Notes under the pieces: model-generated | The model's database searches: none | The model's input: only the letters and a program-made list of their open reading frames with translations | What the model was told of the DNA's origin: nothing | Assembly: GCA_023664775.1 (NCBI GenBank) | Contig: JAMPEW010000013.1 | Coordinates: 1-63,246, forward strand | Direction of reading: 5' to 3' | From: Clostridium sp. | GTDB taxonomy: Bacteria > Bacillota > Clostridia > Lachnospirales > Lachnospiraceae | Length of the DNA: 63,246 nt | Shown here: one piece after another, positions 2,377 to 19,938 of the stretch | Numbering within the stretch: the first letter of the stretch is position 1 | Layout of the letters: the number at the start of each line of letters is the position of its first letter | Made by a program: the position numbers and the translations under genes

Positions 2377-4059
2377 ATGGATTTTGGTGAAATTAGAGAA
2401 GGCTTGGATGTTGAAGGCACTAAAAATGTGATAGATTCCATTTTAAATGCGGGATTTAGTGCTACGATTGTCATCGACAGAACCAGCTTTGAAATTATAT
2501 ATGAGAATAAGAAGGCAAGAGAACTGATTGGAAGCAAGATTGGTTCTGCCTGCCATGAGGTTTTTTGTACAAAGGAGGTACCGTGTCAGGGTTGTCCTAT
2601 TGTAAGTCTTGAAAACACCTCAATTCTTATATCAAAATATGAGGAGCTGTTTGATGAGAAGGCAACATGGGTCTTTTCAAACATCCGATGGTTTGACGGA
2701 AAAGATGCAATCATGGCAACATTGGTTAAGCTGGAGGACAAACAGAACATATCCATTGGTGCTGATGTCATTGAGCCTACAGATGACAAGTTAAATCTCC
2801 GCAAAAGCGAGGTAGACAGCCTGACCAACATACCGAATTACGCTAAATTTTACATAGATGCGGAAAGCATGATAAGAAGTAATTTAGATAAGCAGTATGC
2901 CATAGTTGTTTTTGATATTGACAGATTTAAAAATATAAATGATTTATACGGAATGTCAAAGGGTGATGAGGTTTTAAAGTTTGTGGGCAATGTCCTCAGA
3001 GATACATTTGGCTGTAGTGAAAATTATGCAAGAATGCACTCGGATATGTTTTCCTTTTATATGGAATATGACAGGAAGATTGACATTATCCGTGTTATAG
3101 AGAAAATAAGAAAAAAAATAAGTGCAAACAGCGTGGACTGCGACCTTAATACATCATTTGGAATTTACCTTGTTCAGGATAGGGGCGTGCCGATTAACCT
3201 TATGTGCGACCGGGCAATGGTTGCAAGCAAAACGACAAAGGGTGACGTGATGCGGTTTTGCGCATTTTATGATGAGCAGTACAGGGAGGATATGCTCAGG
3301 GTCAGCGAGATAGAGCATGATATGCATAAAGCCTTGGAGGAGCGTCAGTTCCAAATGTATTTGCAGCCTAAATTCAGGCTTGATACGGAGGAGCTTTGTG
3401 GTGCTGAGGTGCTTGCAAGATGGCTGCACCCAAGCAAGGGAATTATCCCGCCGATAGATTTTATACCGCTTTTTGAAAAAAACGGATTTATATTAAAGCT
3501 TGATGAATATATGTGGGAGGAAGCCTGCAAGACGCTGCGTGACTGGATTGACGAGGGAAGGGAGCCGATACCGCTTTCCGTAAATATTTCCAGATACCAT
3601 ATCAATCACAACGACCTTGAAAATGTACTTATGGGACTTGTGAATAAATATGACATAAAGCCGGAGTATCTCCATTTGGAGATTACGGAGTCCTTGTTTT
3701 TGGATAATCCTGAGGAGCTTAACCGTGTGCTGGAAAGACTTAAAAAGCTGGGATTTTCGCTTGAGGTTGATGATTTTGGCTCAGGCTTTTCATCCCTTAA
3801 CCTTATTAGAAATATAACGGTTGACACAATTAAGATTGATAAGGACTTTTTGGATAATGAGATTGCTTCCGAAAAAGGGCAGATTGTCGTAAACCACACA
3901 ATAGATATGGCAAAGGATTTAAGGCTTCAGGTTATAGCGGAAGGCGTGGAGACAAAAGAGCATGTGGACTTCCTTAAAAAGTCCAGATGTGACATTGCAC
4001 AGGGCTATTATTTTGCAAAGCCAATGCCCCTTACCGAGTTTATGAAATTTGATTTTTAA
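2377..4059 (+). CDS. PAS-GGDEF(degenerate)-EAL cyclic-di-GMP phosphodiesterase
   Basis: 560 residues. N-terminal PAS-like domain (about 20-110) with a cysteine cluster (CHEVFC, VPCQGCP) that could bind metal or sense redox. A GGDEF-fold domain follows (about 150-300) whose signature is HSDMF instead of GGDEF, so cyclase activity is unlikely. The C-terminal EAL domain (about 315-555) keeps the metal and catalytic residues: E in EVLAR, NIS, EITES, VDDFGSGFSSL, KID, AEGVE and the QGYYF tail. The first motif is EVL rather than EAL. Likely a c-di-GMP hydrolase, possibly tuned by GTP binding to the GGDEF remnant. TTGATT and TACTAT before the gene form a plausible promoter. With a flagellar regulon in the same window, a role in the motile/sessile switch is likely but inferred. 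Confidence 0.85.
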   Translation: MDFGEIREGLDVEGTKNVIDSILNAGFSATIVIDRTSFEIIYENKKARELIGSKIGSACHEVFCTKEVPCQGCPIVSLENTSILISKYEELFDEKATWVFSNIRWFDGKDAIMATLVKLEDKQNISIGADVIEPTDDKLNLRKSEVDSLTNIPNYAKFYIDAESMIRSNLDKQYAIVVFDIDRFKNINDLYGMSKGDEVLKFVGNVLRDTFGCSENYARMHSDMFSFYMEYDRKIDIIRVIEKIRKKISANSVDCDLNTSFGIYLVQDRGVPINLMCDRAMVASKTTKGDVMRFCAFYDEQYREDMLRVSEIEHDMHKALEERQFQMYLQPKFRLDTEELCGAEVLARWLHPSKGIIPPIDFIPLFEKNGFILKLDEYMWEEACKTLRDWIDEGREPIPLSVNISRYHINHNDLENVLMGLVNKYDIKPEYLHLEITESLFLDNPEELNRVLERLKKLGFSLEVDDFGSGFSSLNLIRNITVDTIKIDKDFLDNEIASEKGQIVVNHTIDMAKDLRLQVIAEGVETKEHVDFLKKSRCDIAQGYYFAKPMPLTEFMKFDF

Positions 4060-4077
4060 AAAAATAAATAACAATTC

Positions 4078-4106
4078 TTGACATATATATATAGCTGTTG
4101 TATATT
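4078..4106 (+). promoter_or_regulatory. Sigma-A promoter of the acyl carrier protein gene
   Basis: TTGACA at 4078-4083, a 17-base spacer, and TATATT at 4101-4106. Transcription would start about 55 bases before the ACP start codon. Confidence 0.75.
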
Positions 4107-4167
4107 GAAAAATATAAGAGGCTGGTAAGGCTATCGGATTTATCATAAAAAAAGGAGATTATAAACT

Positions 4168-4401
4168 ATGTTAGAAAAAATGAAAGAAATTATTGCTGAA
4201 CAGTTGGGAGTCGATGCTTCAGATGTAGAGCTTTCAACATCCTTTAAGGACGACCTTGGTGCTGATTCACTTGACCTTTTCGAGCTTGTTATGGCACTTG
4301 AGGAGGAGTTCAACTGTGAGATTCCTTCAGATGATTTAACATCAATTGCAACTGTGGAGGACATTATCAAGTATCTTAAGGATATGGGTATTGAGGAGTA
4401 G
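4168..4401 (+). CDS. acpP: Acyl carrier protein
   Basis: 77 residues, very acidic, with the phosphopantetheine attachment motif DDLGADSLDLFELV (Ser at about residue 37) and the family's usual four-helix length. It carries growing acyl chains as thioesters for fatty-acid synthesis. AAGGAG lies at a good distance from ATG 4168. It stands alone with its own promoter and terminator rather than inside a fab cluster, so it could be either the housekeeping ACP or a dedicated second copy. Confidence 0.9.
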   Translation: MLEKMKEIIAEQLGVDASDVELSTSFKDDLGADSLDLFELVMALEEEFNCEIPSDDLTSIATVEDIIKYLKDMGIEE

Positions 4402-4450
4402 CTTCGGCTGCTACATAATTGCATAAAAACAGCTTAAAATAGATTTATAA

Positions 4451-4518
4451 AAAGAGGCTGCTGTAGTAACAATTTGAGGTTTATCTTAAATTGCTAGTGC
4501 AGCAGCTTCTTTTTTTTT
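4451..4518 (+). terminator. Terminator after acpP
   Basis: AAGAGGCTGCTGTAGTAA pairs with TTGCTAGTGCAGCAGCTTCTTTTTT, followed by a run of nine T. A divergent member of the GGCTGTC-family hairpins. Confidence 0.8.
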
Positions 4519-4533
4519 CCTTGCTCCCGGGTA

Positions 4534-4562
4534 TTGACAAAAGCTGCGAAAAGAATTATCAT
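4534..4562 (+). promoter_or_regulatory. Sigma-A promoter of the head-group operon
   Basis: TTGACA at 4534-4539, a 17-base spacer, and TATCAT at 4557-4562. A 14-bp inverted repeat begins four bases downstream, in the position of an operator. Confidence 0.7.
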
Positions 4563-4628: not shown

Positions 4629-6458
4629 ATGCAGGGGATTATTTTGGCTGCCGGAATGGGAAAGCGCCTAAAGGAGCTGACAAAGAATAATACAAAATGC
4701 ATGGTAGAGGTAAATGGCGTATCGCTGATTGAAAGGCTTTTAAGGCAGCTTGAACAGTGCCGTTTATCAAGAATTGTTATTGTAGTGGGGTATCAGGCTG
4801 AAAAGCTGATAGAATTTATTGCAACACTTGATATTAAAACGCCGGTTATTTACATAAACAATTCCGTATATAACAGTACCAACAATATATATTCACTGCA
4901 TTTGGCAAAGGAGTGGCTGTGCAGGGAGGACACGCTATTGTTTGAATCGGACATTATTTTTGAGGACGAGGTTCTTTTTGGACTGATAAATGATAAGAGG
5001 GAAACATTAGCGTTGGTAGATAAATACGAAAGCTGGATGGACGGAACCTGTATGCGGTTATCAGAGGACGATACCATTGAGGAATTTATTTCCGGAAACG
5101 GATTTAGATTTGGGGAGACGGATGATTATTATAAAACTGTGAATGTTTATAAGTTCAGCAGACATTTTTCGAAAACGCATTACGTTCCGTTTTTGGAGGC
5201 ATATATAACAGCCTCGGGTAATAATGAGTACTATGAGCAAGTGCTGAAGGTTATTACCATGCTTGCTCACCCTGAGATTAAGGCAAGGCGTTTGAACGGG
5301 GAAAAATGGTATGAGATAGACGATATTCAGGATTTGGATATAGCGTCAACCATGTTTGCAGAAGATGACCAATGTGTTCGACTGCTGCAAAAAAGGTATG
5401 GGGGCTATTGGAGATACCCGCAGATGATAGATTTTTGCTATTTGGTAAATCCATTTTTTCCACCGCAAAGGTTAATTGATGAAATGAAGTTGTCCTTTGA
5501 CAAGCTGTTGATGCAATATCCGTCGGGCATGGAGGTAAATGCGCTGCTTGCTGCTAAAAATTTTAATTTGCATTCGGAGGATATCGTAGTAGGAAATGGT
5601 GCGGCTGAGCTGATTAAGGCTTTTATGGGTCTTTTGCATGGCAAAACCGGAATCATAAAACCAACCTTTGAAGAATATGCAAACAGATATACGGAGCAGC
5701 TTGAGGTGTTTGTTCCTGAAAACAGGGATTTTCATTATACGGCAGATGATGTTATAAATTACTTTGATGATAAGGCGATTGATAATCTTCTTATCATTAA
5801 TCCTGACAATCCATCAGGAAATTATATTGCAAAAGAAAATATTTTAAAATTAATTTCATGGGCGGGAAATAAAAATATTAACATTGTAATAGATGAGTCC
5901 TTTATTGATTTTGCAGAGGAAGTGGACGCAACAATAATCAGACAGGAGATATTATACGAAAATCCACATCTGACAGTAATAAAAAGCATTTCAAAATCAT
6001 ATGGTATTCCGGGCTTGCGTTTGGGTGTGCTTGCATCTGGAAATAAAGAATTGATTACCAAGTTGAAAAAGGAAGTGGCAATATGGAATATTAATTCATT
6101 TGCAGAGTTTTATATGCAGATTGCAGAAAAATATAAAGGTGATTATGCAGATGGATTGCGGCTCCTGAGAGAGGAAAGAAAAAGCTTTGTAAAGGAGCTG
6201 GAAAAAATAGATGCCATAAGGGTAATTCCTTCGCAGGCAAATTACATAATGCTGGAGCTTGTGAATGGTAAAACTGCAAAGGGGCTGATATCGGACTTGC
6301 TTATCAAATATAATATTTTGGCGAAGGATTTATCGTCTAAGATAGAGACTGGAGAATATATACGGATAGCAGTCCGAAATCATGAGGATAATGAAAAGCT
6401 GGTTTTCGCATTGAAGGAAATATTAAATGGGAGGTTTGTAGATGAATCATTGGGATAA
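4629..6458 (+). CDS. Cytidylyltransferase (LicC-like) fused to a PLP aminotransferase/decarboxylase (CobD/HisC-like)
   Basis: 609 residues. Residues 1 to about 230 form a nucleotidyltransferase with the LAAGMGKRL signature and the KCMVEV acceptor loop of LicC-type choline-phosphate cytidylyltransferases. Residues about 250-605 are a fold-type I PLP enzyme of the HisC/CobD group: VGNGAAELI, NPDNPSGN, IDESFIDF, and the PLP lysine in SISKSYGIPGLRLG. Phosphonate pathways have a comparable fusion (PntC: cytidylyltransferase plus aminoethylphosphonate transaminase). Here the second half resembles threonine-phosphate decarboxylase or histidinol-phosphate aminotransferase. It could make an amino-alcohol phosphate and activate it as a CDP derivative in one polypeptide; that is inference. 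The methyltransferase overlaps it by 17 bases. Start ATG 4629 follows AAAGGAGGGG. Confidence 0.8.
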   Translation: MQGIILAAGMGKRLKELTKNNTKCMVEVNGVSLIERLLRQLEQCRLSRIVIVVGYQAEKLIEFIATLDIKTPVIYINNSVYNSTNNIYSLHLAKEWLCREDTLLFESDIIFEDEVLFGLINDKRETLALVDKYESWMDGTCMRLSEDDTIEEFISGNGFRFGETDDYYKTVNVYKFSRHFSKTHYVPFLEAYITASGNNEYYEQVLKVITMLAHPEIKARRLNGEKWYEIDDIQDLDIASTMFAEDDQCVRLLQKRYGGYWRYPQMIDFCYLVNPFFPPQRLIDEMKLSFDKLLMQYPSGMEVNALLAAKNFNLHSEDIVVGNGAAELIKAFMGLLHGKTGIIKPTFEEYANRYTEQLEVFVPENRDFHYTADDVINYFDDKAIDNLLIINPDNPSGNYIAKENILKLISWAGNKNINIVIDESFIDFAEEVDATIIRQEILYENPHLTVIKSISKSYGIPGLRLGVLASGNKELITKLKKEVAIWNINSFAEFYMQIAEKYKGDYADGLRLLREERKSFVKELEKIDAIRVIPSQANYIMLELVNGKTAKGLISDLLIKYNILAKDLSSKIETGEYIRIAVRNHEDNEKLVFALKEILNGRFVDESLG

Positions 6459-7158
6459 GATTTGGAAAAACAGGGAAACAAAGCTTGCAAATACAGATGA
6501 TGTATTTCAGATGTTTTGTAATTTGAAAAAGGCAAATGGATTTGATACGCAGGATGTAGACAATTATTTTGAAAGCTTTTATGAGGAGTGGCTTGAGAGA
6601 ACAAGGTTTATCAAGGAGCTTTGCAAAAAGCCGCTAACAAGCGTTTATGAGGTCGGCTGTGGAAGCGGTGTTAATCTGTATATGTTTCGTCAGCTTGAGA
6701 ACATTCAAAGGCTCGGCGGCATCGATTATTCCGAAAATATAATTAAGGCTGCAAAAACTGTCGTAGATTCAGCAGATTTATTGTGTGGCGAGGCACTTTC
6801 GGTTTCTGTTGAAGAAAAATACGATTTGGTGTTGGCGGACAGCGTTTTTCAGTATTTTCAGGATGCAGAATACGGAATGCAGGTTTTGGACAGGATGTAC
6901 CAAAAAGCAGATAAGATGGTTGTAATTACAGAGATACATGATGAAAGCAGAAAAGAGGAGCATTTAGAGTATAGGAGAGCCTCTGTAGAAAATTATGATG
7001 AAAAATACAAAGGCTTGGATAAGACCTTTTACACGAAGGAGATGTTTCAGAATTTTGCGGAAAAGGCAAAGTGTAAATGTGTGATTAAAAAGCCGCAAAA
7101 TGAGATTTACTGGAATAATCAATTTGTATTTGACTGTTATCTGTGCAAGGATAATTAA
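6442..7158 (+). CDS. Class I SAM-dependent methyltransferase
   Basis: 238 residues with the SAM-binding motif VYEVGCGSGVN (about residues 69-79), the acidic end of strand 2 (GGIDYSE), and motif LVLADSVFQYF. Start ATG 6442 lies inside the end of the upstream fusion gene and follows GGGAGG, so the two are translationally coupled. The coupling suggests that the methyltransferase acts on the product of the fusion, for example N-methylation of a phosphorylated amino alcohol. The substrate cannot be read from sequence. A sugar or small-molecule methyltransferase is equally possible. Confidence 0.8.
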   Translation: MNHWDKIWKNRETKLANTDDVFQMFCNLKKANGFDTQDVDNYFESFYEEWLERTRFIKELCKKPLTSVYEVGCGSGVNLYMFRQLENIQRLGGIDYSENIIKAAKTVVDSADLLCGEALSVSVEEKYDLVLADSVFQYFQDAEYGMQVLDRMYQKADKMVVITEIHDESRKEEHLEYRRASVENYDEKYKGLDKTFYTKEMFQNFAEKAKCKCVIKKPQNEIYWNNQFVFDCYLCKDN

Positions 7159-7300: not shown

Positions 7301-9073
7301 ATGCTGACAGAAACACAATTTAAAATACTTTATACCGTAATTCAAAAGCAGGATGATAAGCTTACGCAGAGAACCCTTGCAGGGGAAGCGGGATATTCCT
7401 TGGGGAAGATTAATGAGGCAGTAAAGGAATTAACACAAGCAGGGCTTTTAAACAGTGACATGCAGATTTCTTCTGCGGGATATGAGGCTATGGAGCCATA
7501 TAAGGTTAAAAATGCGGTTATCATGGCGGCAGGAATGAGCAGCAGATTTATTCCTCTTTCATATGAAAAGCCAAAGGCACTGCTTAAGGTAAAGGGAGAG
7601 GTTCTCATTGAAAGGGAAATTAAGCAGCTTCAGGAGGCAGGTATCACCGATATAACGGTTGTTGTGGGCTATTTGAAGGAGCAGCTCTTTTATTTAGGAG
7701 ATAAATATAATGTAAATATTGTTATTAATGACGATTATTACAGATATAATAATACCTCTACATTAATTCGTGTGGCTGACAGGCTGGACAACACATATGT
7801 ATGCTCCTCGGACAACTACTTTGCTGAAAATCCATTTGAGCCTTATGTGTATCGGTCTTATTATGCTGCTGTATATGAGGCGGCTAAAACGGATGAATAT
7901 TGTCTTTCCTTCAATAATAAAGGACGGATAACAAAGGTAACCATAGGTGGACAAGCCGCCTGGTATATGCTGGGGCATGTGTACTTTGACAGGGAGTTTA
8001 GCAAAAGATTTGTCAGCATTTTAAGAGATGAATATGACGACCCCCTGACGAAGCAGCAGCTCTGGGAAGACCTTTATATACGCCATATTAAGGAGCTTGA
8101 CTTATACATCCGAAAATATGATGCTGATAAAATCAAGGAATTTGATTCCTTGGAGGAGCTGAGGGGCTTTGATGATAAGTATTTAAAAAATGCCAATTCA
8201 AAAATATTTACAAATATCTGTACTGCTTTAAATGTAAAGGAGGAAAATATAACAAATATTGTTCCTATTAAAAAGGGTCTTACAAATTTTTCTTTTCGTT
8301 TTACCGTAAATGGAAAGGAGTATGTGTACAGGCACCCGGGCGTGGGAACCTCCAATTTCATCAATCGGACAAGCGAAAAAACCTCGCTGGAAATTGCAAA
8401 AAAGCTGGGGCTTGATGATACATTTGTCTGTATGGACGAAAAGGAAGGCTGGAAGATTTCACATTATATAGATAATGTCCAAACCCTTGATTATCATAAC
8501 CAGGAGCAGGTGGCAGAAGCGATACGAATGGTAAAAAAGCTTCATACATGTAATGTAAGGACCGACTTTACATTTGATATATGGGAGGAAATCCGTAAGT
8601 TTGAGGAGCGCCTTGAGGAACGGGGGCATAATCAGTTCGAGGATATGCAGGAGCTGCATGATACAATGGAGCATCTACAGTGTTCCATAATTAAGGAGGA
8701 TAATGAAAAATGTCTCTGCCATTGTGATACATATGACCCTAATTTTCTTGTTGACGCTTCGGGGAAGATGTACCTCATTGACTGGGAATATTCCGGCATG
8801 GCTTACAGAGGCGGCGATATTGGCACGTTTATCGCCTGCTCGGATTATACGAGGGAGGAAGCCGATGGAATAATCAATCTGTATTTGGAGCATGAGGCTG
8901 ATACAAGGGAAAAACGATATTTTTATACCTATATAGCGGCAGCGGCATATTATTGGTTTTTGTGGGCGATTTACCAAAATAGTGTTGGAAATGATGTTGG
9001 CGAATATCTGTACATTTGGTACAAGTACACAAAGACGTACAGCAGGGAAGCAAAAAAATATTTTGAAAAATAA
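7301..9073 (+). CDS. Winged helix - choline-phosphate cytidylyltransferase (LicC) - choline/ethanolamine kinase (LicA) triple fusion
   Basis: 590 residues. Residues 1-65 are a MarR-like winged helix (TQRTLAGEAGYSLGKINEAV, then wing). Residues about 69-295 are a LicC-type nucleotidyltransferase (IMAAGMSSRF, KPKALLKV, CSSDNYF). Residues about 310-585 are a LicA-type kinase: GLTNFSF nucleotide loop, catalytic CHCDTYDPNF (HxDxxxxN), and metal-binding LIDWEYSG. In Haemophilus and Streptococcus, LicA phosphorylates choline and LicC makes CDP-choline for surface polymers. Here both steps and a DNA-binding module share one chain, so the enzyme may sense its substrate and control its own operon (inference). 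Start ATG 7301 follows AGAGAG. No LicD transferase is in the window. Confidence 0.85.
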   Translation: MLTETQFKILYTVIQKQDDKLTQRTLAGEAGYSLGKINEAVKELTQAGLLNSDMQISSAGYEAMEPYKVKNAVIMAAGMSSRFIPLSYEKPKALLKVKGEVLIEREIKQLQEAGITDITVVVGYLKEQLFYLGDKYNVNIVINDDYYRYNNTSTLIRVADRLDNTYVCSSDNYFAENPFEPYVYRSYYAAVYEAAKTDEYCLSFNNKGRITKVTIGGQAAWYMLGHVYFDREFSKRFVSILRDEYDDPLTKQQLWEDLYIRHIKELDLYIRKYDADKIKEFDSLEELRGFDDKYLKNANSKIFTNICTALNVKEENITNIVPIKKGLTNFSFRFTVNGKEYVYRHPGVGTSNFINRTSEKTSLEIAKKLGLDDTFVCMDEKEGWKISHYIDNVQTLDYHNQEQVAEAIRMVKKLHTCNVRTDFTFDIWEEIRKFEERLEERGHNQFEDMQELHDTMEHLQCSIIKEDNEKCLCHCDTYDPNFLVDASGKMYLIDWEYSGMAYRGGDIGTFIACSDYTREEADGIINLYLEHEADTREKRYFYTYIAAAAYYWFLWAIYQNSVGNDVGEYLYIWYKYTKTYSREAKKYFEK

Positions 9074-9086
9074 TTAGGAGGAAGCT

Positions 9087-9281
9087 ATGAGTAAGGAAGA
9101 ACAGGAATTGTCTCTTGAGGAGCTGATTGCATCTGAGACAGAAAAACGGCTGAATGAAATGGAACAGCCTGATTATGAATTTCCAAAGAAAATTAACAAG
9201 GCGGATGTAATCGTTATGATTGCGGGATTTTTGGTAAGTGCGGTACTGATTGCACTTTGCATGACAGGGGTGATACAGTAA
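9087..9281 (+). CDS. Small one-helix membrane protein coupled to the NCS1 permease
   Basis: 64 residues: a strongly acidic N-terminal half (about 1-38) and a single membrane helix (about 41-62, VIVMIAGFLVSAVLIALCM). GGAGG precedes ATG 9087, 13 bases after the kinase fusion. Its TAA stop shares a base with the ATG of the permease (TAATG), so it is translated in step with it. I do not recognise the family. Small subunits of this shape accompany several permeases, and that is the most natural guess. Confidence 0.7.
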   Translation: MSKEEQELSLEELIASETEKRLNEMEQPDYEFPKKINKADVIVMIAGFLVSAVLIALCMTGVIQ

Positions 9282-10711
9282 TGGGAAAAAATGCAGATTA
9301 CATAAGACAGGAAACGGTTACAGGTGTTGTGCCGATGCTGAAAAAGGACAGACAGTATTCCTTTATGGATTTGCTCCTTTCAACAAGCGGCTTTGCCATT
9401 GCAACATGGTGCTACACACAGGGAGCATATGGGGCGCAGTTTTTGACCTTTAAGCAATTGCTTATCAATATTTTCTGCTTCAATATCGTATGGATTATTA
9501 TTGAGTGTATTCCGGTATTGTTTGCCGTACGGTACGGAATTGATTTGTGGATCTGGTTACGCTCTGTGCTTGGGGCAAAGGGCGTTGCAGTGATTGCAAC
9601 GGTAATCAGTCTGGCAAATTTCGGCTGGTATGCAGTTGCGGCAAATTTGTTTTCCTCATCCATGATTAACCTTGCAGGCAATTTTGGATTACACTTAAAT
9701 CCTGATATTTGGAATCCGGTATTGGGAACGCTCTGTGTCGTACTTGGAACGCTGATTGCTTTAGGCGGACCTGACGTAATAAAATGGACAAACAGATTTT
9801 TGGTAACGGCACTGCTCATTGTCGGTGCCATCGTCGTGGGACTTTGCTTTACGGCAGTACCGTTGTCAGATATTGCGGCGGTAAAGCCGGTTGTTGATAA
9901 CGGCAATTCTTCCCTCGTTAATTTTATGCTGTCGGCAGAGGGCAATGTAGCCTTTGCATTTTCATGGTCAACACAGGCACTTGTAATGCCAAGGCTTGCA
10001 AGGTCAGAGAGAAGCGGCTTTTGGGGTACGGCTATTTCCTATGGCATCGTTGCTCCTTTCTTTGTGGCAGCAGGCGGCGTCATGGCATTTGCCATGTATG
10101 TTAAGACAGGAATATACGAAAGTGACCCGACGGCAATGCTGTCTACGCTTTGTGGTTCAGGCTTTGCCCTGTTAAGCCTGCTTATGGTTGCTTTTGCAAA
10201 TGTAGGCACACAGGGAACCGGCTCATATGTGAACTGTATGATTGTAAAGAGCGGCATGCCGAAGGTCAGCTATAAGCTGTTAGTTATCATTGCAATGGTG
10301 TATGTCAGCGGGCTTACAATCTGGGGCGGTGTAAATGACCATTTTGGTGCATTTATATCACTTGCCGCGTACATACAGGGACCTATCATCGGTATGACGC
10401 TGGTAGATTACCTGATTGTAAAAAAGAGAAAGCTGTCCCTAAAGTCGGCGTACGGCTTGGATGGGCATGATGCATATAAATTTACGGGAGGATTTAATTT
10501 TGTAGGAATTGGATGCCTTGTCGTTGCGTTTGTGGTATCCATGCTGTTTGTATACAATCCGATGACGGGCGTTGTCCACAGCGATATATTTTTGTTTACG
10601 ACAGGAAGCGGATTTACTGCAATTTTCGGCGGTCTGCTTTATCTGATTGCAAGCCTGACGCCATTAAAGAAATACATGCTCCGTGACAGGGACGATTTGG
10701 AGATTGTGTAG
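9281..10711 (+). CDS. NCS1-family (cytosine/purine/allantoin-type) permease
   Basis: 476 residues with about 12 membrane helices and the PF02133-type layout: FMDLLLSTSGFAIATW in helix 1 and ISLANFGWYAVAANL in helix 3. I start at ATG 9281, which overlaps the preceding stop and has AGGGGTG upstream. The in-frame ATG at 9257 lies inside the small gene and lacks a binding site. NCS1 carriers take up nucleobases, hydantoins, thiamine or pyridoxine with Na+ or H+. In this operon it replaces the choline permease (LicB) of classic lic loci, so an amino-alcohol or nitrogen-compound substrate is plausible but unproven. Confidence 0.85.
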   Translation: MGKNADYIRQETVTGVVPMLKKDRQYSFMDLLLSTSGFAIATWCYTQGAYGAQFLTFKQLLINIFCFNIVWIIIECIPVLFAVRYGIDLWIWLRSVLGAKGVAVIATVISLANFGWYAVAANLFSSSMINLAGNFGLHLNPDIWNPVLGTLCVVLGTLIALGGPDVIKWTNRFLVTALLIVGAIVVGLCFTAVPLSDIAAVKPVVDNGNSSLVNFMLSAEGNVAFAFSWSTQALVMPRLARSERSGFWGTAISYGIVAPFFVAAGGVMAFAMYVKTGIYESDPTAMLSTLCGSGFALLSLLMVAFANVGTQGTGSYVNCMIVKSGMPKVSYKLLVIIAMVYVSGLTIWGGVNDHFGAFISLAAYIQGPIIGMTLVDYLIVKKRKLSLKSAYGLDGHDAYKFTGGFNFVGIGCLVVAFVVSMLFVYNPMTGVVHSDIFLFTTGSGFTAIFGGLLYLIASLTPLKKYMLRDRDDLEIV

Positions 10712-10759: not shown

Positions 10760-11656
10760 ATGGAAAAGGTTACACAAAATGATATTTTGTTGGTAAAAAA
10801 AATTATTAAAATGGTTTTGGATGTTGACGAATATGAAGCAATTGAGCGATTGGGTGGACTTACAAACCATACATACCATGTAATCATCAAGAACGGAGAA
10901 GAATATATAGTCAGACTGCCTGGTGAGGGCACGCAGCAGCTTATCAACCGACAGAACGAGAGGGTAAGCACTGAGCTTGCCTGTAAGCTTGGGGTTGATG
11001 CAAGGCTTTTGTATTTTGGGGAGGATGGCACAAAGGTGTCTGACTATATCCCGAATGCCATTACAATGTCAGCCGAAACGCTGCGTGAGGAAAAGCATAT
11101 TAAACAGGTGGCACACATTTTCCAAACCATGCACCGATGTAATGCAAATACTGGAGTTCCTTTTCAGGTTTTTGATATGGCGGACGGATATGAAAAACTG
11201 ATTAATGATATGAATGTGTCAATGTTTGATGATTATACTGTCAGCAAGCAAACAGTTATGAAAATAAAAAAACAGGTTGATGACTTGATAGAGGTTTCCC
11301 TTGTTCCGTGTCATAATGATCCACTTTGTGAAAATTGGGTGGAGGGTAATGGAAGAATGTATCTGATTGATTGGGAATATGCAGGAATGAATGATGGTAT
11401 GTGGGACATAGCAGATGTGTCAATTGAAGCAAGCTTTGATGATGGATGTGACGAAAAGCTGCTTTGCGCTTACCTTGACAGAAAGCCGAATGTAATCGAC
11501 AAAAAACATTTTCTTGCAAACAAAATATATGTTGATTATTTGTGGACGTTATGGGCAAAAGCTCGTGTTCCATATGATGGTCAACCTATGGAGGATTGGG
11601 CATTTGAGCGCTACAATCGGATGAAGGAAAACATTTCAAGCTTTATGAAACTGTAA
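10760..11656 (+). CDS. LicA-like choline/ethanolamine kinase
   Basis: 298 residues, a stand-alone aminoglycoside-phosphotransferase/choline-kinase fold. Motifs: GGLTNHTYHV near the start, YIVRLPG, catalytic PCHNDPLCEN (HNDxxxxN) and LIDWEYAGMNDGMWD. It resembles the kinase half of the upstream triple fusion, including the RLPGEGTQQLINR stretch (RHPGVGTSNFINR there), so the operon carries two related kinases. They may phosphorylate different amino alcohols. Start ATG 10760 follows GGAGAG. It is the last gene of the 4.6-11.7 kb set. Confidence 0.85.
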   Translation: MEKVTQNDILLVKKIIKMVLDVDEYEAIERLGGLTNHTYHVIIKNGEEYIVRLPGEGTQQLINRQNERVSTELACKLGVDARLLYFGEDGTKVSDYIPNAITMSAETLREEKHIKQVAHIFQTMHRCNANTGVPFQVFDMADGYEKLINDMNVSMFDDYTVSKQTVMKIKKQVDDLIEVSLVPCHNDPLCENWVEGNGRMYLIDWEYAGMNDGMWDIADVSIEASFDDGCDEKLLCAYLDRKPNVIDKKHFLANKIYVDYLWTLWAKARVPYDGQPMEDWAFERYNRMKENISSFMKL

Positions 11657-11929: not shown

Positions 11930-14413
11930 TTAACCCATTACAACCTCAACTGTATGAGTTTTGCCATCTCCCGCAACAGGGATAACATTTCCGTCTACAG
12001 CCTTTCCGTCTACAACGAGGCTCTTAACACCCTTGTTGACATGGTCTGGGTTTGTAACCTTAATATCGTAAGTGTCGCCACGGAACTGACGTGTTGCAGT
12101 AAGTCCGTCCCAAGCGGCAGGAATGGATGGGTCAATCTTGAGACCATCCCAATCAGGCTGAACACCTAAAATGTACTGTGAAATGGCTACCATATTCCAT
12201 GCAGCAGTACCTGTAAGCCATGAATTCTTACCCTGTCCAAAGTGGTTGCCTGGTTTTCCGATATCGGAGCCTGCGTCCTTACCACCAATCATCTGACCAT
12301 ATACATATGGCTCTGTCTTGTGGATATCAGAAGTCTCCTCCGTGAAGGCAGGAGCAATCTTTGAATAGTATTCAAACGCCTTATCTCCACGTCCTGCATA
12401 AGCCTCAGCACAGATAATCCATGCATTGTTATGGGTAAATATTCCGGCATTTTCCTTGTAACCGCCAGGATATGTTGAAATCTCACCATACTGAATGTAA
12501 TACTTCGTAAATGCAGGATTGTTAAGTACAAGACCGAAGTCTGTGTTCAGGTATTTATCGATAGCGTTAAGCGTCTTTATGTCAGCACCTTCCTCCTTGC
12601 CAATCTCTGACATAACTGCAAAGCCCTGTGGCTCAATAAATATCTTACCTTCCTCACATTCCTTGGAGCCCATCTTAGCACCTGTTGAGTCATAAGCCCT
12701 GAGGAACCAGTCGCCGTCAAATGCATGCTCCATAACATTCTTCTTCATCTTGTCAATCTCTGCCTGAGCAGCCGCAGCCTCGTCATCCTTGCCTAAATGC
12801 TTTAAGATAGCCACATAGTTTGGTCCTGTATAAGTAAAGAGTGTGGCAACCATAACTGACTCGGCAATCTTTGAATATCCGCCCTCTGCTGCAAACTTAG
12901 GGTTTGTATATGTCTGGAAGCTTTCGCCCGGTGTATCTGAGAAGCAGGAAAGATTGATACAGTCATTCCAGTCAGCTCTCATGGCAAGCGGAAGTCCGTG
13001 TGGTCCGAGATTATTTACTATTTTGTAGAATGAAACCTTAAGGTGGTCAAGCATTGGCTTTGCCTTTGACTCGTCATTGTCATAAGGAACCATCTCATCA
13101 AGAATAGCCCAGTCGCCGGTTTCCTTGATATATGCTGACACGGAAAGGATCATCCATAATGGGTCATCGGAGAAATCTCCGCCTATATCTGAATTACCCT
13201 TCTTTGTGAGAGGCTGGTACTGGTGGTAGCAGCCGCCGTCAGGAAGCTGTGTGGAGGCAATGTCGATAATTCTCTCTCTTGCACGGTCCGGAATCTGATG
13301 CACGAAACCGAGAACGTCCTGATTGGAATCGCGGAAGCCCATACCACGACCGATACCTGACTCGAAGTAAGAAGCAGAACGTGAAAGGTTAAATGTAACC
13401 ATACACTGATACTGATTCCAGATATTAACCATACGGTTTACTTTGTCATCAGGAGTGTCTACTGTTAAAATGCCAAGAAGCTTGTCCCAAGTCTCCTTGA
13501 GCTCTGCAAGACCTGCAGCAACCTTTTCAGGCGTATTGTACTTGTCCATCATGGCAAGTGCCTTTGTCTTGTTGATTGTCTTGCCGTCAGCTTCAAATTT
13601 TTCTTCAAGAGGCATTTCAACATAGCCAAGAATAAATACTAAAGTTTTTGTCTCGCCCGGAGCAAGTGTAATCTTCTTGTAGTGTGAAGCGATTGGCGAC
13701 CAGCCGTCTGCAAATGAGTTGTTGGCTGCAGCTGCCTCAACTGCCTGTGGATTGTTAAATCCGTTGTAAAGACCGATGAAAGCATCCCTGTCTGTGTCGT
13801 AGCCGTCAATCTCGTCATTTACCGTGTAAAATGCGAAATGGTCACGTCTATCCCTGTACTCTGTTTTGTGGTAGATGGTTGAACCAGCAACCTCAACACG
13901 GCCTGTGGAGAAGTTTCTCTGGAAGTTTGTGCAGTCATCCTGAGCGTCCCATAAACACCACTCAGCAAATGAGAAAAGTGAAAATGTCTTTTCTGCTGCA
14001 CCCTCGTTTGTGAGAACGAGCTGCTGAACCTCACCATCATAGTTTTGTGGAACAAAGAATGTAACCTCTGCCTTCAAATCATTTTTCTTACCGGTAATAA
14101 TTGTGTAACCCATACCGTGACGACACTCATAAGCGTCAAGCTCTGTCTTAACAGGCGACCAGCCCGGATTCCAAATGGTACCGTTTTCATTGATATAAAA
14201 ATAACGACCGCCCATATCAATAGGAACGTTGTTGTAACGGTAACGGGTGATTCTTCTAAGACGAGCATCCTTGTAGAACGAGTATCCTCCGGCTGTATTG
14301 GAAATCAGTGAAAAGAAACCCTGTGTGCCTAAGTAGTTAATCCATGGATATGGAGTCCTAGGCGAAGTGATTACATACTCTCTGTTGGAGTCATCAAAGT
14401 AACCAAATTTCAT
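11930..14413 (-). CDS. GH94 glycoside phosphorylase, probably cellobiose phosphorylase
   Basis: 827 residues from the ATG at 14413, preceded by GGAAGG; twelve further upstream codons are unlikely to be translated. It has the GH94 domain order: N-terminal beta-sandwich starting [13 protein letters not shown], helical linker, (alpha/alpha)6 barrel with the general-acid Asp in [11 protein letters not shown], and a C-terminal jelly roll. The phosphate-binding region is around [13 protein letters not shown]94 enzymes split beta-linked disaccharides with phosphate into glucose-1-phosphate plus sugar, saving ATP. Length and the YPWINYLG start fit cytoplasmic cellobiose phosphorylase (EC 2.4.1.20). 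Cellodextrin or laminaribiose phosphorylase cannot be excluded. It has its own promoter and a palindromic operator. Confidence 0.85.
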
Positions 14414-14458
14414 GTAATATACCTTCCTTTCATAAAACACTGCCAACATTATATCATA

Positions 14459-14705: not shown

Positions 14706-15929
14706 ATGCTTTTATATATAGATCCCGGAACGGGAAGCATGCTGTTTACAATTCTTATCGGTGTCATCGGAACAGCAGTGTATTCCCTGCGGATGCTTAT
14801 CATTAAAATACATTTTAAGCTTACAGGCGGCAAGGTGACGGTAAATGAAAATAAAATACCGTTTGTGATTTTTTCAGATAATAAGCGGTATTGGTCTGTG
14901 TTTGAGCCGATTTGTCGTGAAATGGACAGGCGTGGAAAGGATATTTTATACATAACGGCATCTCCTGACGACCCTGTGCTTACATGTCCGTACTCGCATG
15001 TTACGACGGAATGTATCGAAAATAATAACAAGCTTTTTACAAGATTAAATTTTTTAAATGCGGCGATTGTTTTGTCCACTACACCGGGGCTTGAGGTATA
15101 TCAGTGGAAACGCTCACGGGATGTAACGTATTATGTGCATATCCCTCATGCGGCAAGCGAGATTATTCTTTATAGAATGTTTGGAATTGACTATTACGAT
15201 GCAATTTTGCTTTCAGGAGATTTTCAGGGACGGGATGTGCGTAATCTTGAGAAGCTCCGTTCCCTGCCGGAGAAGGAGCTTGTAAAGGTTGGTATTCCGT
15301 ATATGGACGAGATGGCAAATCGGCTTGAAAAAAGTGGATTGGCATCCGAACATGAAAGGACGGTGCTGCTGGCACCATCTTGGGGAAACAGTGCCATATT
15401 TGGTGTGTATGGTGGAAGGATTATTGAGGTGCTTTTGAAAACGGGCTACCATGTCATTGTCCGTCCACACCCGCAGTCCTTTACGTCAGAGAAGGATATG
15501 ATGGAAAAGCTGATGGAGGAATATCCGGAGCAGGAGCAGCTTGAGTGGAACAGGGATACGGATAATTTTGAGGTTTTGCGCCGTTCGGACATACTCATTT
15601 CTGATTTTTCTGGTGTTGTGTTTGAGTTTGCCTTGGTATATGATAAGCCGGTTATTTATACCAATCCCGATTTTGACCTTGCTCCTTATGATGCTTGGTG
15701 GCTTGACACGCCTGTCTGGACAACAACGGCGCTTCCAAGATTGGGCTGTGAGCTTAGTGAGGATAATATGGAGTCGCTGAAGGAGCTGATTGACTCTTGC
15801 ATAGAGGATGAAAAATATGCTGAGGGAAGACGTGAGGTAAAAGAGGAGACATGGGCATATTGTGGTGAGGGTTGTTGCCGTACAGTCGACTACTTGATAA
15901 ACAAGTACGAGGAGATATCTGTTTGTTAG
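14706..15929 (+). CDS. CDP-glycerol glycerophosphotransferase-like protein
   Basis: 407 residues. An N-terminal membrane segment starts with LLYIDPGTGSM (about 3-30), followed by a GT-B fold of the TagB/TagF family: IVRPHPQSF (the RPHP motif), LISDFSGVVFEFAL (SDxSG donor loop) and KPVIYTNPDFD. Family members transfer glycerol-phosphate or a related alditol-phosphate from a CDP carrier to a teichoic-acid primer or chain at the membrane. It is shorter than polymerases such as TagF, closer to a primase. Start ATG 14706 follows GAGGAG. It is probably cotranscribed with the insertase-sulfatase fusion 108 bases downstream. Confidence 0.85.
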   Translation: MLLYIDPGTGSMLFTILIGVIGTAVYSLRMLIIKIHFKLTGGKVTVNENKIPFVIFSDNKRYWSVFEPICREMDRRGKDILYITASPDDPVLTCPYSHVTTECIENNNKLFTRLNFLNAAIVLSTTPGLEVYQWKRSRDVTYYVHIPHAASEIILYRMFGIDYYDAILLSGDFQGRDVRNLEKLRSLPEKELVKVGIPYMDEMANRLEKSGLASEHERTVLLAPSWGNSAIFGVYGGRIIEVLLKTGYHVIVRPHPQSFTSEKDMMEKLMEEYPEQEQLEWNRDTDNFEVLRRSDILISDFSGVVFEFALVYDKPVIYTNPDFDLAPYDAWWLDTPVWTTTALPRLGCELSEDNMESLKELIDSCIEDEKYAEGRREVKEETWAYCGEGCCRTVDYLINKYEEISVC

Positions 15930-16037
15930 GCAATTGCGAAATACTTTAGTTTCGAAATATAGTTGTATAACGGACGTTTTCAAAAGATAGAGTTTCGTAA
16001 TTGACTAGTCCGTTTATGATAGAGGAGATAGGATAGA

Positions 16038-18860
16038 ATGACATTTTTTGAAATACTATATACAATACTCATCGGACCATTAAAGCTGCTCTTTGAGATT
16101 ATATTTGAGCTTGCCAACAGGTTTACCATGCATCAGGGACTCTCCATTATTTTTTTGAGCCTTATTATGAATATCCTTGTGCTTCCACTTTACAGACGGG
16201 CAGATGATATGCAGGAGCAGGCGAGGGATATTGATGCAAGGCTTCGTGACGGCGTGGCACACATAAAAAAGACATTTTCCGGCGATGAAAAAATGATGAT
16301 GCTTCAGACCTACTATAGGCAGAATCATTATAAGCCCACAGATGCTTTGAAGGGGTCTGTGTCGCTGCTGCTTGAAATTCCATTTTTTATTGCGGCATAT
16401 CAGTTTCTGTCCCACTTAGAAAGTCTGAATGGCGTATCCTTAGGACCCATAGCCGATTTAAGCAAGCCGGACGGAATGCTTGTGATTGGCGGGTTTACCA
16501 TAAACCTTCTGCCTGTTATAATGACATCTGTAAATATAATATCAAGCTTTCTTTATTTAAAGGGTTTCCCGACAAAGACGAAGATACAGCTTTATGGCAT
16601 GGCGCTGTTTTTCCTTGTATTTTTATATGGCTCGCCATCGGGTCTTGTATTTTATTGGACGCTTAACAATTTATTTTCGCTCGTTAAGACAATTTTTTAT
16701 AAGCTGAAAAATCCCAAGAAGGTGCTTCTTGTGATGCTGGCAGTTATCGGCATGCCAATTTTTGTATATTCAGCATTTCTATACAATACGCCTTCGCTTA
16801 GGAAAAAGGTGTTTCTTATTTTAATAGCACTGATTTTAATTTTGCCATTGGTGTTCAATATAATTTTGTCAAGTGTCACTGTAAATAAGGCATTGGCAAA
16901 ATTAAAAAAATTGCTTGCTCCTGCTCCAAACTCCAAGCATAATGAAGCAAAACCTCAGAAGGATAAGCTGTTTTTTGTGGGAACCATATTTCTTACTGTG
17001 CTTGTGGGATTGCTTATACCGTCAAATTTTATTGCAGCATCTCCACAGGAGTTTGTCGATATTACATATTTTTATAATCCTATTTGGTATATCGTTGCCT
17101 CTCTTGCAATGGCTGCAGGCACATTTTTAGTTTGGCTTCGTGTGTTCTATCTGCTGGCAAGTCCAAGGGGAAGGGTATTTTTTGAAAGGCTTGTCTTTAT
17201 TATGTGTGGACTTATGTTTGCAGACTATATGTTTTTCGGTACGGGGCTTGGGAATATTTCTTCCACATTGCAGTATAGCAGCGGCATGATTTTTTCAAGG
17301 AAAGAACAGCTTATTAATCTGCTGGTGCTTATGGGAATTGCTTTGCTTATGTATGCGTTGATATTGAAATTATACCGCATGGCTGTTCCTGTACTGCTTG
17401 TTGCGTCACTTGCGCTTGGCGTTATGTCGGTTGTGAATATTTCCACCATCAAATCCTCTGTGGATAAGCTTGTTGTAGAAAATGTTTCTGATGATTTGAC
17501 CTTCAGAATGAGCACGTCAGGTAAAAATGTTGTGGTTATTATGCTTGACCGGGGAATGGGAGAATACATACCATACCTATTTAATGAAAAACCTGAGCTT
17601 GTGGAGCAGTTTGCAGGCTTTACCTATTATCCAAATGTAGTTTCCTTTGGCAACTCTACGAATTTTGGAGCGCCGACCTTGCTTGGAGGGTATGAATACA
17701 CGCCTGTGGAAATGAACAAAAGGGCAGACGAGCCTTTGGTTGCCAAGCACAACGAGGCAATAAAAGTAATGCCTGTGTTATTTTCAGATAATGGATATGA
17801 CGTTACGGTCTGCGACCCTGTTTACGCAAATTATCAGTGGTTTTCTGATACATCAATTTTTAACGACTATCCGGACATTAATGCATGTATTACGGAGGGA
17901 AGGTTCAGTTCACAGCAGACAAAGCAGCAGAGAATCGACAATAATGAGCGTAATTTTTTCTGCTTTAGTATTATGAAAACAATGCCGCTTCTCGCACAGC
18001 CTACAATATACGCCAACGGTACATACAATCAGGCACAGTCTGAAAGCAGTGGAATACAGACTTGCTATAATATGTCAAAAGCACAGGGTTTAAGCTCATT
18101 GTTTATGAACCCGTATAATGTACTTGACAATATGCCTTTTATGACGGCTGTGACAGAAGAGAATGTAAACACATTTTTATATATGACAAATAATACTACC
18201 CATGAGCCTATGCTGCTTCAGGAGCCTGAATATGTCCCTGCCGAAGTGGTGGATAACACAAAATATGATGCTGAAAATACGGCTCGTTTTACGGTTGACG
18301 GCAGGACGATGAAAATGGAAAATTATATGCAGATGTCCCATTACCAGTCAAATATGGCGGCTTTGCTTAAGCTTGGCGAATGGTTTGACTTTTTAAGGGA
18401 GCAGAATTTATATGACAACACAAAAATAATCATAGTTTCAGACCACGGAAGACATCTTGGACATTTTGACGAGCTGGCAATGGGAGGAGAGGATAATTTA
18501 AAAAATGTGGAGATGTATTATCCACTGCTGCTTGTTAAGGAGTTTAACAGTACAGAGTTTGCCGTATCGGAGGAGTTTATGACTACGGCGGATGTTCCAA
18601 CGCTTGCAGTAAAGGATTTGATTGACAATCCCATAAATCCGTTTACGGGAAAGGCAATTACGAATACTGAGAAAACGGCACATGAACAGTATATTATTAT
18701 GTCGGATGAATATGATGTTGCTGTTAATAACGGCAATGCCTTCCTTCCTGCAAGATGGGCGAGGGTAAGGGAAAACATGTGGAATAGAGAAAACTGGGAA
18801 TTTTACGACGAGGAAATTGTACTTGATAAGTATGCATTCCCCACAGACACCGTAAAATAA
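16038..18860 (+). CDS. YidC/Oxa1 insertase domain fused to a membrane sulfatase/EptA-like phosphotransferase
   Basis: 940 residues. Residues 1 to about 235 are a YidC/Oxa1 domain: FTMHQGLSIIFLSLIMNILVLPL, a basic cytoplasmic hairpin, LLEIPFFIAAYQFL and GSPSGLVFYWTLNNLFS. Then come several membrane helices (about 240-480) and an alkaline-phosphatase-superfamily domain (about 498-900). Catalytic-looking residues match EptA/LtaS spacing: metal Asp504 in IMLDRGMG, nucleophile Thr541 in NSTNFGAP, and Asp802-His803 in VSDHGRHLGH. It follows a CDP-glycerol transferase gene. I infer transfer of a phospho-head-group or glycerol-phosphate onto a surface polymer or lipid outside the membrane, with the YidC part as scaffold. 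I know of no characterised protein with this architecture. The frame is continuous, so it is not an assembly artefact of a frameshift. Confidence 0.85.
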   Translation: MTFFEILYTILIGPLKLLFEIIFELANRFTMHQGLSIIFLSLIMNILVLPLYRRADDMQEQARDIDARLRDGVAHIKKTFSGDEKMMMLQTYYRQNHYKPTDALKGSVSLLLEIPFFIAAYQFLSHLESLNGVSLGPIADLSKPDGMLVIGGFTINLLPVIMTSVNIISSFLYLKGFPTKTKIQLYGMALFFLVFLYGSPSGLVFYWTLNNLFSLVKTIFYKLKNPKKVLLVMLAVIGMPIFVYSAFLYNTPSLRKKVFLILIALILILPLVFNIILSSVTVNKALAKLKKLLAPAPNSKHNEAKPQKDKLFFVGTIFLTVLVGLLIPSNFIAASPQEFVDITYFYNPIWYIVASLAMAAGTFLVWLRVFYLLASPRGRVFFERLVFIMCGLMFADYMFFGTGLGNISSTLQYSSGMIFSRKEQLINLLVLMGIALLMYALILKLYRMAVPVLLVASLALGVMSVVNISTIKSSVDKLVVENVSDDLTFRMSTSGKNVVVIMLDRGMGEYIPYLFNEKPELVEQFAGFTYYPNVVSFGNSTNFGAPTLLGGYEYTPVEMNKRADEPLVAKHNEAIKVMPVLFSDNGYDVTVCDPVYANYQWFSDTSIFNDYPDINACITEGRFSSQQTKQQRIDNNERNFFCFSIMKTMPLLAQPTIYANGTYNQAQSESSGIQTCYNMSKAQGLSSLFMNPYNVLDNMPFMTAVTEENVNTFLYMTNNTTHEPMLLQEPEYVPAEVVDNTKYDAENTARFTVDGRTMKMENYMQMSHYQSNMAALLKLGEWFDFLREQNLYDNTKIIIVSDHGRHLGHFDELAMGGEDNLKNVEMYYPLLLVKEFNSTEFAVSEEFMTTADVPTLAVKDLIDNPINPFTGKAITNTEKTAHEQYIIMSDEYDVAVNNGNAFLPARWARVRENMWNRENWEFYDEEIVLDKYAFPTDTVK

Positions 18861-18936: not shown

Positions 18937-19938
18937 TTATTCTGTATAAATGTGCTCGGTCAGAGTTTTTTCTTCTCCCGGTGCAAGCTCCACGTAGCCT
19001 GATTCGTCAGCAGGAATAGGCTGGTTTGGAGCATCAATAAGCCATGTGCTAGGCTCAGGACAGAAAAATCCTTTGTCGCCGTGGTCGTTCCATATAATCC
19101 AAAACTTAAAGTCCTCGCATACCTCATAAATAATTCGTTTGCCTGTAGCATTGTCGGTTACAATGGCACCATAAAATTTCCTGTCATCTATGGAGCCCAT
19201 CTCTGCAAAGAAAACATCGTTGTCAATGTCATGCAGCACAGGAACCTGCGAACCGGTAATGTACTGTCGGTCATGGTTTGTCATAGGGAGAAATTCTCCC
19301 GTAGGAATACAGTGCTTGTCAAGCTTCCATTTGTCACCGATCGGAATGTAAAGCCTCGTATCAAGACCATTTCCTCCGGAGATAAAAGGTCCGTTAATTG
19401 TAGTATGATTGCACACGCCAAAAGGAAGCTGTTTATCTGATGTATTTGTGATGGTAAAGGAATAATCAAGTCCTGATTCCGAAAGCGTAAACTTAAAGGA
19501 TGCCTTAAAGCTTACCGGATAGTACTGATAAAATTCATCCTTATCATCATAAATAAATTCCGTTTTTGCAATTGCCTTATCCCCAACAACCGTTGCACTT
19601 ATGATGCTATGCTCCCTCTTGTGAAGGAATCCGTGAATGTGGTTGCCGAGAGGGTCATTGATAGGTAAATGATATGTCGCATCCGAAACCTTAAGAACGC
19701 CGTTTGCCAAACGGTTCGGAAGGTAAAGCGTTGGAAGTCCGTAAACCTCGGCAGATGCTTTAAGCTCATCTATGGTAAGCGCCTCATCATATCTGAAAAT
19801 TTCTATATTATTTTGTGTGTCCTGCATTCTGATAACATTACTGCCTAAAAATGGAGCTACAACCGCTCTGTATTTTCCGGCAACTAATTCTATGACATCT
19901 TTGCCCTTATAGCTTGTAACATTAGCTGAAATACTCAT
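18937..19938 (-). CDS. galM: Aldose 1-epimerase family protein
   Basis: 333 residues with the galactose-mutarotase fold: NRLANG, the substrate histidine in GNHIHGFLH, the second in GVCNHTTIN, and the catalytic glutamate in FFCPEPSTW. It equilibrates alpha and beta anomers of hexoses, or binds a related sugar. It starts at the ATG at 19938 with AGGAGG upstream. It lies alone, convergent with the fusion gene, and may support the GH94 sugar pathway. It is divergent enough from classic GalM that the exact sugar is uncertain. Confidence 0.8.
   Translation of the reverse strand: MSISANVTSYKGKDVIELVAGKYRAVVAPFLGSNVIRMQDTQNNIEIFRYDEALTIDELKASAEVYGLPTLYLPNRLANGVLKVSDATYHLPINDPLGNHIHGFLHKREHSIISATVVGDKAIAKTEFIYDDKDEFYQYYPVSFKASFKFTLSESGLDYSFTITNTSDKQLPFGVCNHTTINGPFISGGNGLDTRLYIPIGDKWKLDKHCIPTGEFLPMTNHDRQYITGSQVPVLHDIDNDVFFAEMGSIDDRKFYGAIVTDNATGKRIIYEVCEDFKFWIIWNDHGDKGFFCPEPSTWLIDAPNQPIPADESGYVELAPGEEKTLTEHIYTE

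Follow-up and report, generated by a model that had tools for sequence, protein, structure and literature searches.

YidC cores fused to LtaS-type phosphotransferases and to TagB/F-like proteins in Clostridia: candidate parts of a machine for surface decoration

We analyzed a stretch of 63,246 nucleotides from Clostridium sp. (Lachnospiraceae; assembly GCA_023664775.1, contig JAMPEW010000013.1, positions 1 to 63,246 of the forward strand), called the window below, in which one gene encodes a YidC/Oxa1 core continuous with an LtaS-type phosphotransferase and follows a gene for a TagB/F-like protein. The main new result of the analysis is that the same parts recur in rearranged architectures. 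Three were found: a TagB/F-like protein encoded next to a YidC-phosphotransferase fusion, a YidC-TagB/F fusion encoded with a separate phosphotransferase, and a single phosphotransferase-YidC-TagB/F chain. We propose, with a probability of roughly 0.4, that these proteins form a machine that attaches phospho-zwitterions (for instance phosphocholine or aminoethylphosphonate) to surface polymers, and that the fusion protein would be its membrane and outer part. The three architectures, a fourth module consisting of a helix, and the stronger conservation of the YidC half relative to the enzyme half suggest, as circumstantial support, that the parts belong to one shared machine.

Results

A single open frame joins a YidC core to an LtaS-type phosphotransferase

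The gene at 16038-18860 is a single open frame of 940 residues (P0001) without internal stops. The continuity of the frame, already described in the initial annotation, was confirmed here and recurs in relatives. The features of the fusion gene and its upstream partner are:

14706-15929, plus strand: TagB/F-like (Glyphos_transf) partner, 407 residues, 108 nt upstream of the fusion
14715-14804, plus strand: YIDP module, a YIDPGTGS motif with a transmembrane helix that opens the TagB/F partner
16038-18860, plus strand: YidC-LtaS-like fusion, 940 residues (open frame, Pfam, relatives)
16137-16700, plus strand: YidC/Oxa1 core, residues 34-221, with groove position N45 (PF02096, PDB 3wo7)
16965-17465, plus strand: residues 310-476, helical membrane part of the phosphotransferase half with five hydrophobic segments (hydropathy and charge pattern, AF2 helices)
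17502-18827, plus strand: extracytoplasmic catalytic domain of the alkaline-phosphatase superfamily (LtaS-type), residues 489-930, with D504, T541, H722 and D802-H803

The YidC core matched PF02096 (60KD_IMP, YidC/Oxa1) with 82 bits at a cut-off of 35 and the YidC structure 3wo7 with E 7e-7, and the NCBIfam YidC domain model TIGR03592 gave 79.3 bits, narrowly below its cut-off of 84.3. Two further hydrophobic segments at residues 226-278 join the core to the phosphotransferase half. Since seven segments are predicted from hydropathy and charge between YidC and the catalytic domain, the latter is placed outside in the window protein.

The phosphotransferase half folds as a member of the alkaline-phosphatase superfamily, with structure-based fold matches mainly covering residues 494-940. 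The Pfam Sulfatase model matched residues 496-810 with E 1.8e-4, but its score of 21.3 bits was below the cut-off of 25. A profile built from homologues of both kinds, fused and free, pointed to LtaS as the closest family with a solved structure (2w5q, E 1.6e-9). Of the sulfatase/EptA-like domain proposed initially, the superfamily and the active site stand, and the nearest family is LtaS rather than EptA. The active-site residues D504, T541 and D802-H803 had been placed correctly; together with H722 they are kept in 47 of 47 distinct fusion relatives, and the catalytic columns are also invariant across three fused and nine free homologues, the free ones being 16-18% identical to the window protein. 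We take T541 to be the threonine nucleophile and D504, H722, D802 and H803 to be metal ligands. S1 sulfatases are marked by the formylglycine motif C/S-x-P-x-R, which is absent from the window protein; its nucleophile region reads T541-N-F-G-A. Judged by sequence, the outer half is probably an LtaS-type enzyme with predicted phosphotransferase activity.

The fusion recurs in Clostridia

A two-domain gene was present in 11 of 37 genomes of the window's genus, in one case as two overlapping frames (G020) and in another cut by contig ends (G031); the other 8 of the 19 matches obtained in this search were fragments or unfused domains (G027 and seven genomes of other families). It was also found in 18 of 397 sampled genomes of the family, where seven further matches were partial, canonical or unfused, and in 12 of 391 genomes of the class, eight of them within one genus of another family. 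In a sample of 189 genomes from the phylum, which says little on absence, the fusion was seen only in the window's own genome. The relatives are 96 to about 40% identical to the window protein. An assembly artefact, a frameshift join or chance is ruled out by 47 distinct sequences on many contigs that carry the two-domain frame. An origin from phages or plasmids was considered and rejected: none of 18 plasmid and 4 phage records in a tblastn search covered 80% of the query, and in the plasmid and phage records among the matches listed (5 and 4, respectively) only the YidC part was matched.

At some loci the gene is multiplied or decayed. Up to three tandem fusion copies lie behind a single TagB/F gene (L025, 4336-12808; L097, 9342-17865). 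Such copies diverge most in the linker, with 32-65% identity over within-locus pairs, and this divergence may reflect different acceptors. Relatives that are split or carry a flagged stop were seen at L030, L094 and L013, and the split and remnant copies (two overlapping frames; an 88-residue remnant of the YidC part) are located at L030 7813-10603, L094/L013 and L096 4447-4713.

The TagB/F-like partner and its YIDP helix

A TagB/F-like gene, which the initial annotation had noted in front of the fusion, adjoins it in 16 of 16 loci. The partner has the PF04464 domain, a TagF fold and the conserved His and RPHP motifs. In 36 rows of partners, of which L100 repeats the contig of L025, the gap to the fusion is ≤ 30 nt in 29, and the two genes overlap in 14. 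The TagB/F genes of two genomes (G278, L076; G169, L081) left no trace in the map of open reading frames, but were found beside each fusion by a Pfam search of the genome. In the window the gap (15930-16037) measures 108 nt; in L023, a relative of 96% identity, the two genes overlap by 4 nt and TagB/F extends slightly further at its C-terminus. The partner of L083 (9535-11700) has 721 residues with a long C-terminal extension, and the same locus encodes a phosphoenolpyruvate (PEP) mutase fused to two nucleotidyltransferase-type domains (2485-4542).

All 36 partner rows open with a YIDPGTGS motif followed by a hydrophobic helix (D6-G10 in 36 of 36, S11 in 35), and a pattern of this type has a single match in the window's genome. 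The YIDP expression gave one match in 20 control regions, an unrelated stretch in L165.

Rearranged architectures

The rearranged proteins were reached via weak phosphotransferase matches in other Clostridia. The YidC-TagB/F fusions L089 (634 residues), L090 (710 residues) and L091 (674 residues) each have a free membrane phosphotransferase nearby. L092 is a single frame of 1192 residues with Sulfatase at 230-454, YidC at 580-769 and TagB/F at 821-1099, all above the Pfam cut-offs, and hydropathy and charge predict its phosphotransferase outside and its TagB/F domain inside. L093, cut at one end, shares this plan; hmmscan gave YidC and Sulfatase only, and the TagB/F part was seen by other searches. 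YidC-TagB/F fusions were found in 15 of 299 genomes of the family, in 15 genera, and in 4 of 391 genomes of the class; a phylum sample of 199 genomes gave none, which says little on absence. A phosphotransferase-like protein accompanies YidC-TagB/F, either in the stretch or within the chain, at 15 of 23 distinct loci.

The YIDP motif was not found within the YidC-TagB/F chains. Their loci encode instead a separate small YIDP protein (about 85-93 residues in eight printed sequences) with a motif like AYIDPSxVTYxIQ, a signal-peptide-like start, one helix and a basic tail. It lies near 21 of 23 YidC-TagB/F genes, within 700 nt in 18 and at 2-5 kb in three (L150, L155, L156), and was not found at L144 and L154; at L143 and L146 it was recovered only by a profile. 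At L090, one of the 18, the YIDP protein is fused to the phosphotransferase. Examples of these open reading frames of about 87 residues with a signal peptide and a YIDP helix are L141:8695-8961, L142:9626-9886 and L181:9436-9699. The copy of L142 matched the Pfam inovirus coat protein B weakly (24.6 bits, cut-off 23.5).

Conservation of the YidC half

Over the 47 fusions, the mean pairwise identity is 61.4% for YidC, 30.4% for the linker and 47.7% for the phosphotransferase. All 39 genomes examined encode a separate housekeeping YidC (in G195 as two frames). Between genera, the fused YidC is 65.9% identical over matched columns versus 49.6% for the housekeeping YidC, with the fused form higher in 166 of 175 pairs. 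Membrane-helix positions conserved to at least 95% number 38 in 46 fusions versus 16 in 20 housekeeping YidC proteins; the near-invariant polar uncharged positions of the fused YidC include S41, N156, T163, N166, T208, N210 and S214.

The groove residue of the 47 fusions is N in 44, Q in two and G in one, so none has a positive charge there; in six of six YidC-TagB/F fusions examined it is Lys. In one report the YidC groove residue is described as strictly basic, and hydrophilicity rather than charge as what matters (PMC8920935). At this site, the housekeeping YidC proteins from 20 of the same genomes carry R in 6 cases, K in 5, Y in 5, N in 3 and V in 1, i.e., basic residues in 11 and non-basic ones in 9, so that groove charge does not define the YidC family here. 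This control comprised L185-L204 without L190, plus L001; a 21st genome, G169, was partial and was dropped.

Genes for donor synthesis near the fusions

The initial annotation had placed enzymes for CDP-head-groups nearby, correctly at 7301-9073 and 10760-11656. The candidate donor-synthesis genes of the window are:

4629-6458, plus strand: cytidylyltransferase fused to a CobD/HisC-like PLP enzyme (TIGR01140, 172 bits, below the cut-off of 290.55)
6442-7158, plus strand: methyltransferase, possibly for N-methylation of the head-group (PF13649 and related; 17-nt overlap with the preceding gene)
7301-9073, plus strand: winged helix, cytidylyltransferase (LicC-like) and choline kinase (LicA-like), 590 residues, probable donor synthesis (Pfam HTH_24, NTP_transf_3, Choline_kinase)
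9257-10711, plus strand: NCS1-type permease, probably for uptake of choline or a precursor (PF02133)
10760-11656, plus strand: second choline kinase-like protein (PF01633, 86 bits)

The gene pair at 4629-7158 may make a methylated CDP-amino-alcohol. LicC/LicA-like proteins, cytidylyltransferase-CobD-like fusions and aminoethylphosphonate genes are recurrent neighbors. The cytidylyltransferase-CobD-like fusions recur near both YidC-phosphotransferase and YidC-TagB/F genes (L072, L089, L094, L102, L142, L143, L181), and the NCS1-type permease recurs near the fusions in L070, L097 and L098. L146 has an aminoethylphosphonate set of mutase, decarboxylase, aminotransferase and cytidylyltransferase, in which the decarboxylase (TIGR03297) is above the NCBIfam cut-off, and L029 has a mutase (TIGR02320) and an aminotransferase (TIGR03301) above their NCBIfam cut-offs. 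Three of the 31 fusion stretches contained LicD; it was not among the window genes at about 7-26 kb, the range that was searched for LicD in this genome, where LicA- and LicC-like proteins are present.

Donor genes of the CDP-choline or aminoethylphosphonate type were found at 18 of 28 fusion loci and 11 of 17 YidC-TagB/F loci compared with none of 20 control regions (p 2e-6 and 1.4e-5, respectively, in Fisher tests that ignore relatedness), which supports the link of the fusion to CDP-head-group enzymes proposed initially. The fusion loci, 31 in number, had been picked for long flanks; their initial count of 21 of 31 included query-source loci, and removal of the window, L029 and L032 gave the 18 of 28. 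When the five loci known to belong to the window's genus were excluded as well, 14 of 23 had donor genes. The tally left uncounted the fusion loci L023, L025 (the contig that recurs as L100), L030, L035, L036, L051, L079, L081, L095, L099, L101 and L102 and the YidC-TagB/F loci L153, L154 and L160 (contig ends), L088, L092, L093 and L181. The control regions were hand-picked on the same contigs of the same genomes, and the score thresholds were set by the analyst. The gene context points to CDP- or CMP-activated donors other than CDP-glycerol.

On the opposite strand, a GH94 phosphorylase gene (11930-14449) and an aldose epimerase gene (18937-19938) flank the TagB/F-fusion pair. GH94 is kept in 4 of 16 loci and the epimerase in 3 of 16, these being the window and its closest relatives.

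Discussion

In the machine that we propose, cytosolic kinases and cytidylyltransferases would produce a CDP- or CMP-activated head-group. The TagB/F-like partner, anchored by the YIDP helix, would attach the phospho-head-group to a lipid on the cytosolic side of the membrane, and the YidC core, docked to the YIDP helix, would offer the loaded lipid a hydrophilic transmembrane path, much as scramblases do. With Thr541 and metal bound by Asp504, Asp802-His803 and His722, the LtaS-like half would then hand the phospho-head-group to an outer glycan. The modules, their conservation, the fusion orders and the gene association are observed; we infer the substrate, the lipid intermediate, the use of YidC as a path and the docking of the YIDP helix to YidC. 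A relay from the CDP/CMP-head-group via TagB/F, a lipid and the YidC path to LtaS-like transfer would be the simplest single account. That the YidC fold may be reused for a lipid-linked substrate had been suggested initially. A more specific version, which we regard as doubtful, is that the Oxa1/YidC fold became a flippase or scramblase dedicated to lipid-linked phospho-zwitterions and forms the core of a four-module machine, with the YIDP helix closing the groove into a channel. Purified E. coli YidC scrambles lipids in vitro (PMC10491306).

Several observations weigh against the proposed machine. In G064 the TagB/F genes lie away from the fusions. No phosphotransferase was seen at 8 of 23 YidC-TagB/F loci (L142, L144, L149, L152, L153, L154, L156, L181), of which L153 and L154 sit at contig ends, and the stretch showed no donor gene at 10 of the 28 fusion loci and at 6 of the 17 YidC-TagB/F loci. 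The donor genes of the window stop roughly 3 to 6 kb before TagB/F, past the GH94 gene on the opposite strand, and some loci additionally encode LicD or an ordinary TagF-like protein, which could be the transferase instead. The YidC half of the AF2 model is of modest confidence (block means 49-87). The excess of YidC conservation vanishes within the window's genus (fused 76.9% vs. housekeeping 79.7% in 15 pairs, fused higher in 7), and the higher conservation compared to housekeeping YidC could come from horizontal transfer, which could explain part of this contrast, but not that between the halves of one protein. The groove Asn, considered as a sign of lost insertase function or a changed role, was withdrawn as an argument because housekeeping YidC is often non-basic at this site.

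In the likeliest alternative, which we still consider unlikely, the YidC core takes no part in transport and serves as a scaffold that keeps TagB/F, on the inside, and the LtaS-like enzyme, on the outside, at one assembly site; each enzyme would act on a substrate of its own, and separate flippases would carry the intermediates. The several fusion orders suit such bridging, the predicted topology puts the enzymes on opposite faces, and a Wzx-type flippase gene adjoins the TagB/F gene of L030. A passive anchor is, however, not expected to be the most conserved part of the protein (61.4% vs. 47.7%; 38 vs. 16 near-invariant membrane positions), and the LtaS-like half already has a five-segment membrane domain of its own.

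Short helices with an outward N-terminus are typical YidC clients. The core might accordingly be a dedicated insertase for the YIDP helix or for an acceptor membrane protein that is then modified, as PptA modifies pilins. The YidC core passes the Pfam cut-off, the free YIDP protein resembles a classic YidC substrate, and its L142 copy shows the weak coat-protein match mentioned above. We nevertheless rate this explanation as quite unlikely: a general YidC is already available in each of the 39 genomes, a single helix per TagB/F scarcely requires a fused insertase, and no other recurrent client gene was noticed, with small genes at YidC-phosphotransferase loci not systematically searched.

Ordinary teichoic-acid assembly, in which TagB/F would use CDP-glycerol or CDP-ribitol and the LtaS-like half phosphatidylglycerol to build a glycerol-phosphate polymer, agrees with the family names, the TagF fold, LtaS as the best PDB family and the ordinary TagF-like genes near the fusions of L076 (220.7 bits) and L102 (232.6 bits), but is improbable given recurrent neighbors that make choline-type or aminoethylphosphonate donors, an objection that is weak because no search was aimed at TagD in particular.

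Proteins of the YidC fold are known for inserting other proteins into membranes. If the flippase or scramblase version holds, this fold would have a transport role beyond the biogenesis of proteins, and a transfer step that is missing for phosphonates and phosphocholine at the surface would be accounted for. A YidC core fused to inner and outer phosphotransferases would be a natural case in which lipid scrambling could matter. Aminoethylphosphonate is activated by cytidylyl transfer, and the later steps are called enigmatic (PMC6697681); the proteins described here are candidates for the unexplained steps from CMP-aminoethylphosphonate or CDP-choline-type donors to surface glycans in gut Clostridia.

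Comparison with known systems

Among the papers listed in the literature searches, none described a YidC-phosphotransferase or YidC-TagB/F fusion, as judged by titles and abstract openings with partial coverage, most subscription papers lying outside it. YidC, SpoIIIJ and Oxa1 insertases share the PF02096 core, the cytosolic C1 loop and the five-helix core; the proteins reported here differ in being fused to enzymes, in having near-invariant membrane residues of their own and in coexisting with a housekeeping YidC. LtaS/LtaP and PptA/EptA share the fold and the five-segment membrane domain and, as we assume for the residue roles, the Thr nucleophile and metal ligands, whereas here a YidC core and a TagB/F partner accompany the enzyme, in one chain or in separate genes.

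The Lic-1 pathway (LicA/LicB/LicC/LicD) shares the LicA- and LicC-like proteins and a nearby permease; here TagB/F and an LtaS-like enzyme accompany it. One study sees no sign that any species has both Lic-1 and PptA (PMC10434233), and the pairing in the window is an analogue of Lic-1/PptA, not PptA itself, the enzyme being LtaS-like. For flagellin modification in Clostridioides difficile, CDP-threonine from a LicC-like enzyme has been suggested as the substrate of the TagF-like CD0244 (PMC10714395; PMC8861647). This type A flagellin glycan pathway (CD0242-CD0244) shares a LicC-like cytidylyltransferase, a methyltransferase, a TagF-like phosphotransferase and a proposed CDP-linked zwitterion; it differs in its acceptor, a flagellin glycan, and the accessible part of the report names neither YidC nor an outer phosphotransferase (PMC10714395).

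The proposed logic of lipid loading in the cytosol, transfer across the membrane and an outer transferase is the same as in the three-component surface modification systems of polyprenyl phosphoribose synthase, MATE flippase and GT-C enzyme (PMC11127046). Compared with these, the cargo would be a phospho-head-group on a putative lipid intermediate, the middle component has a YidC/Oxa1 fold and the outer one is a phosphotransferase of the alkaline-phosphatase superfamily. The parts belong to known families and the proposed logic resembles that of the three-component systems.

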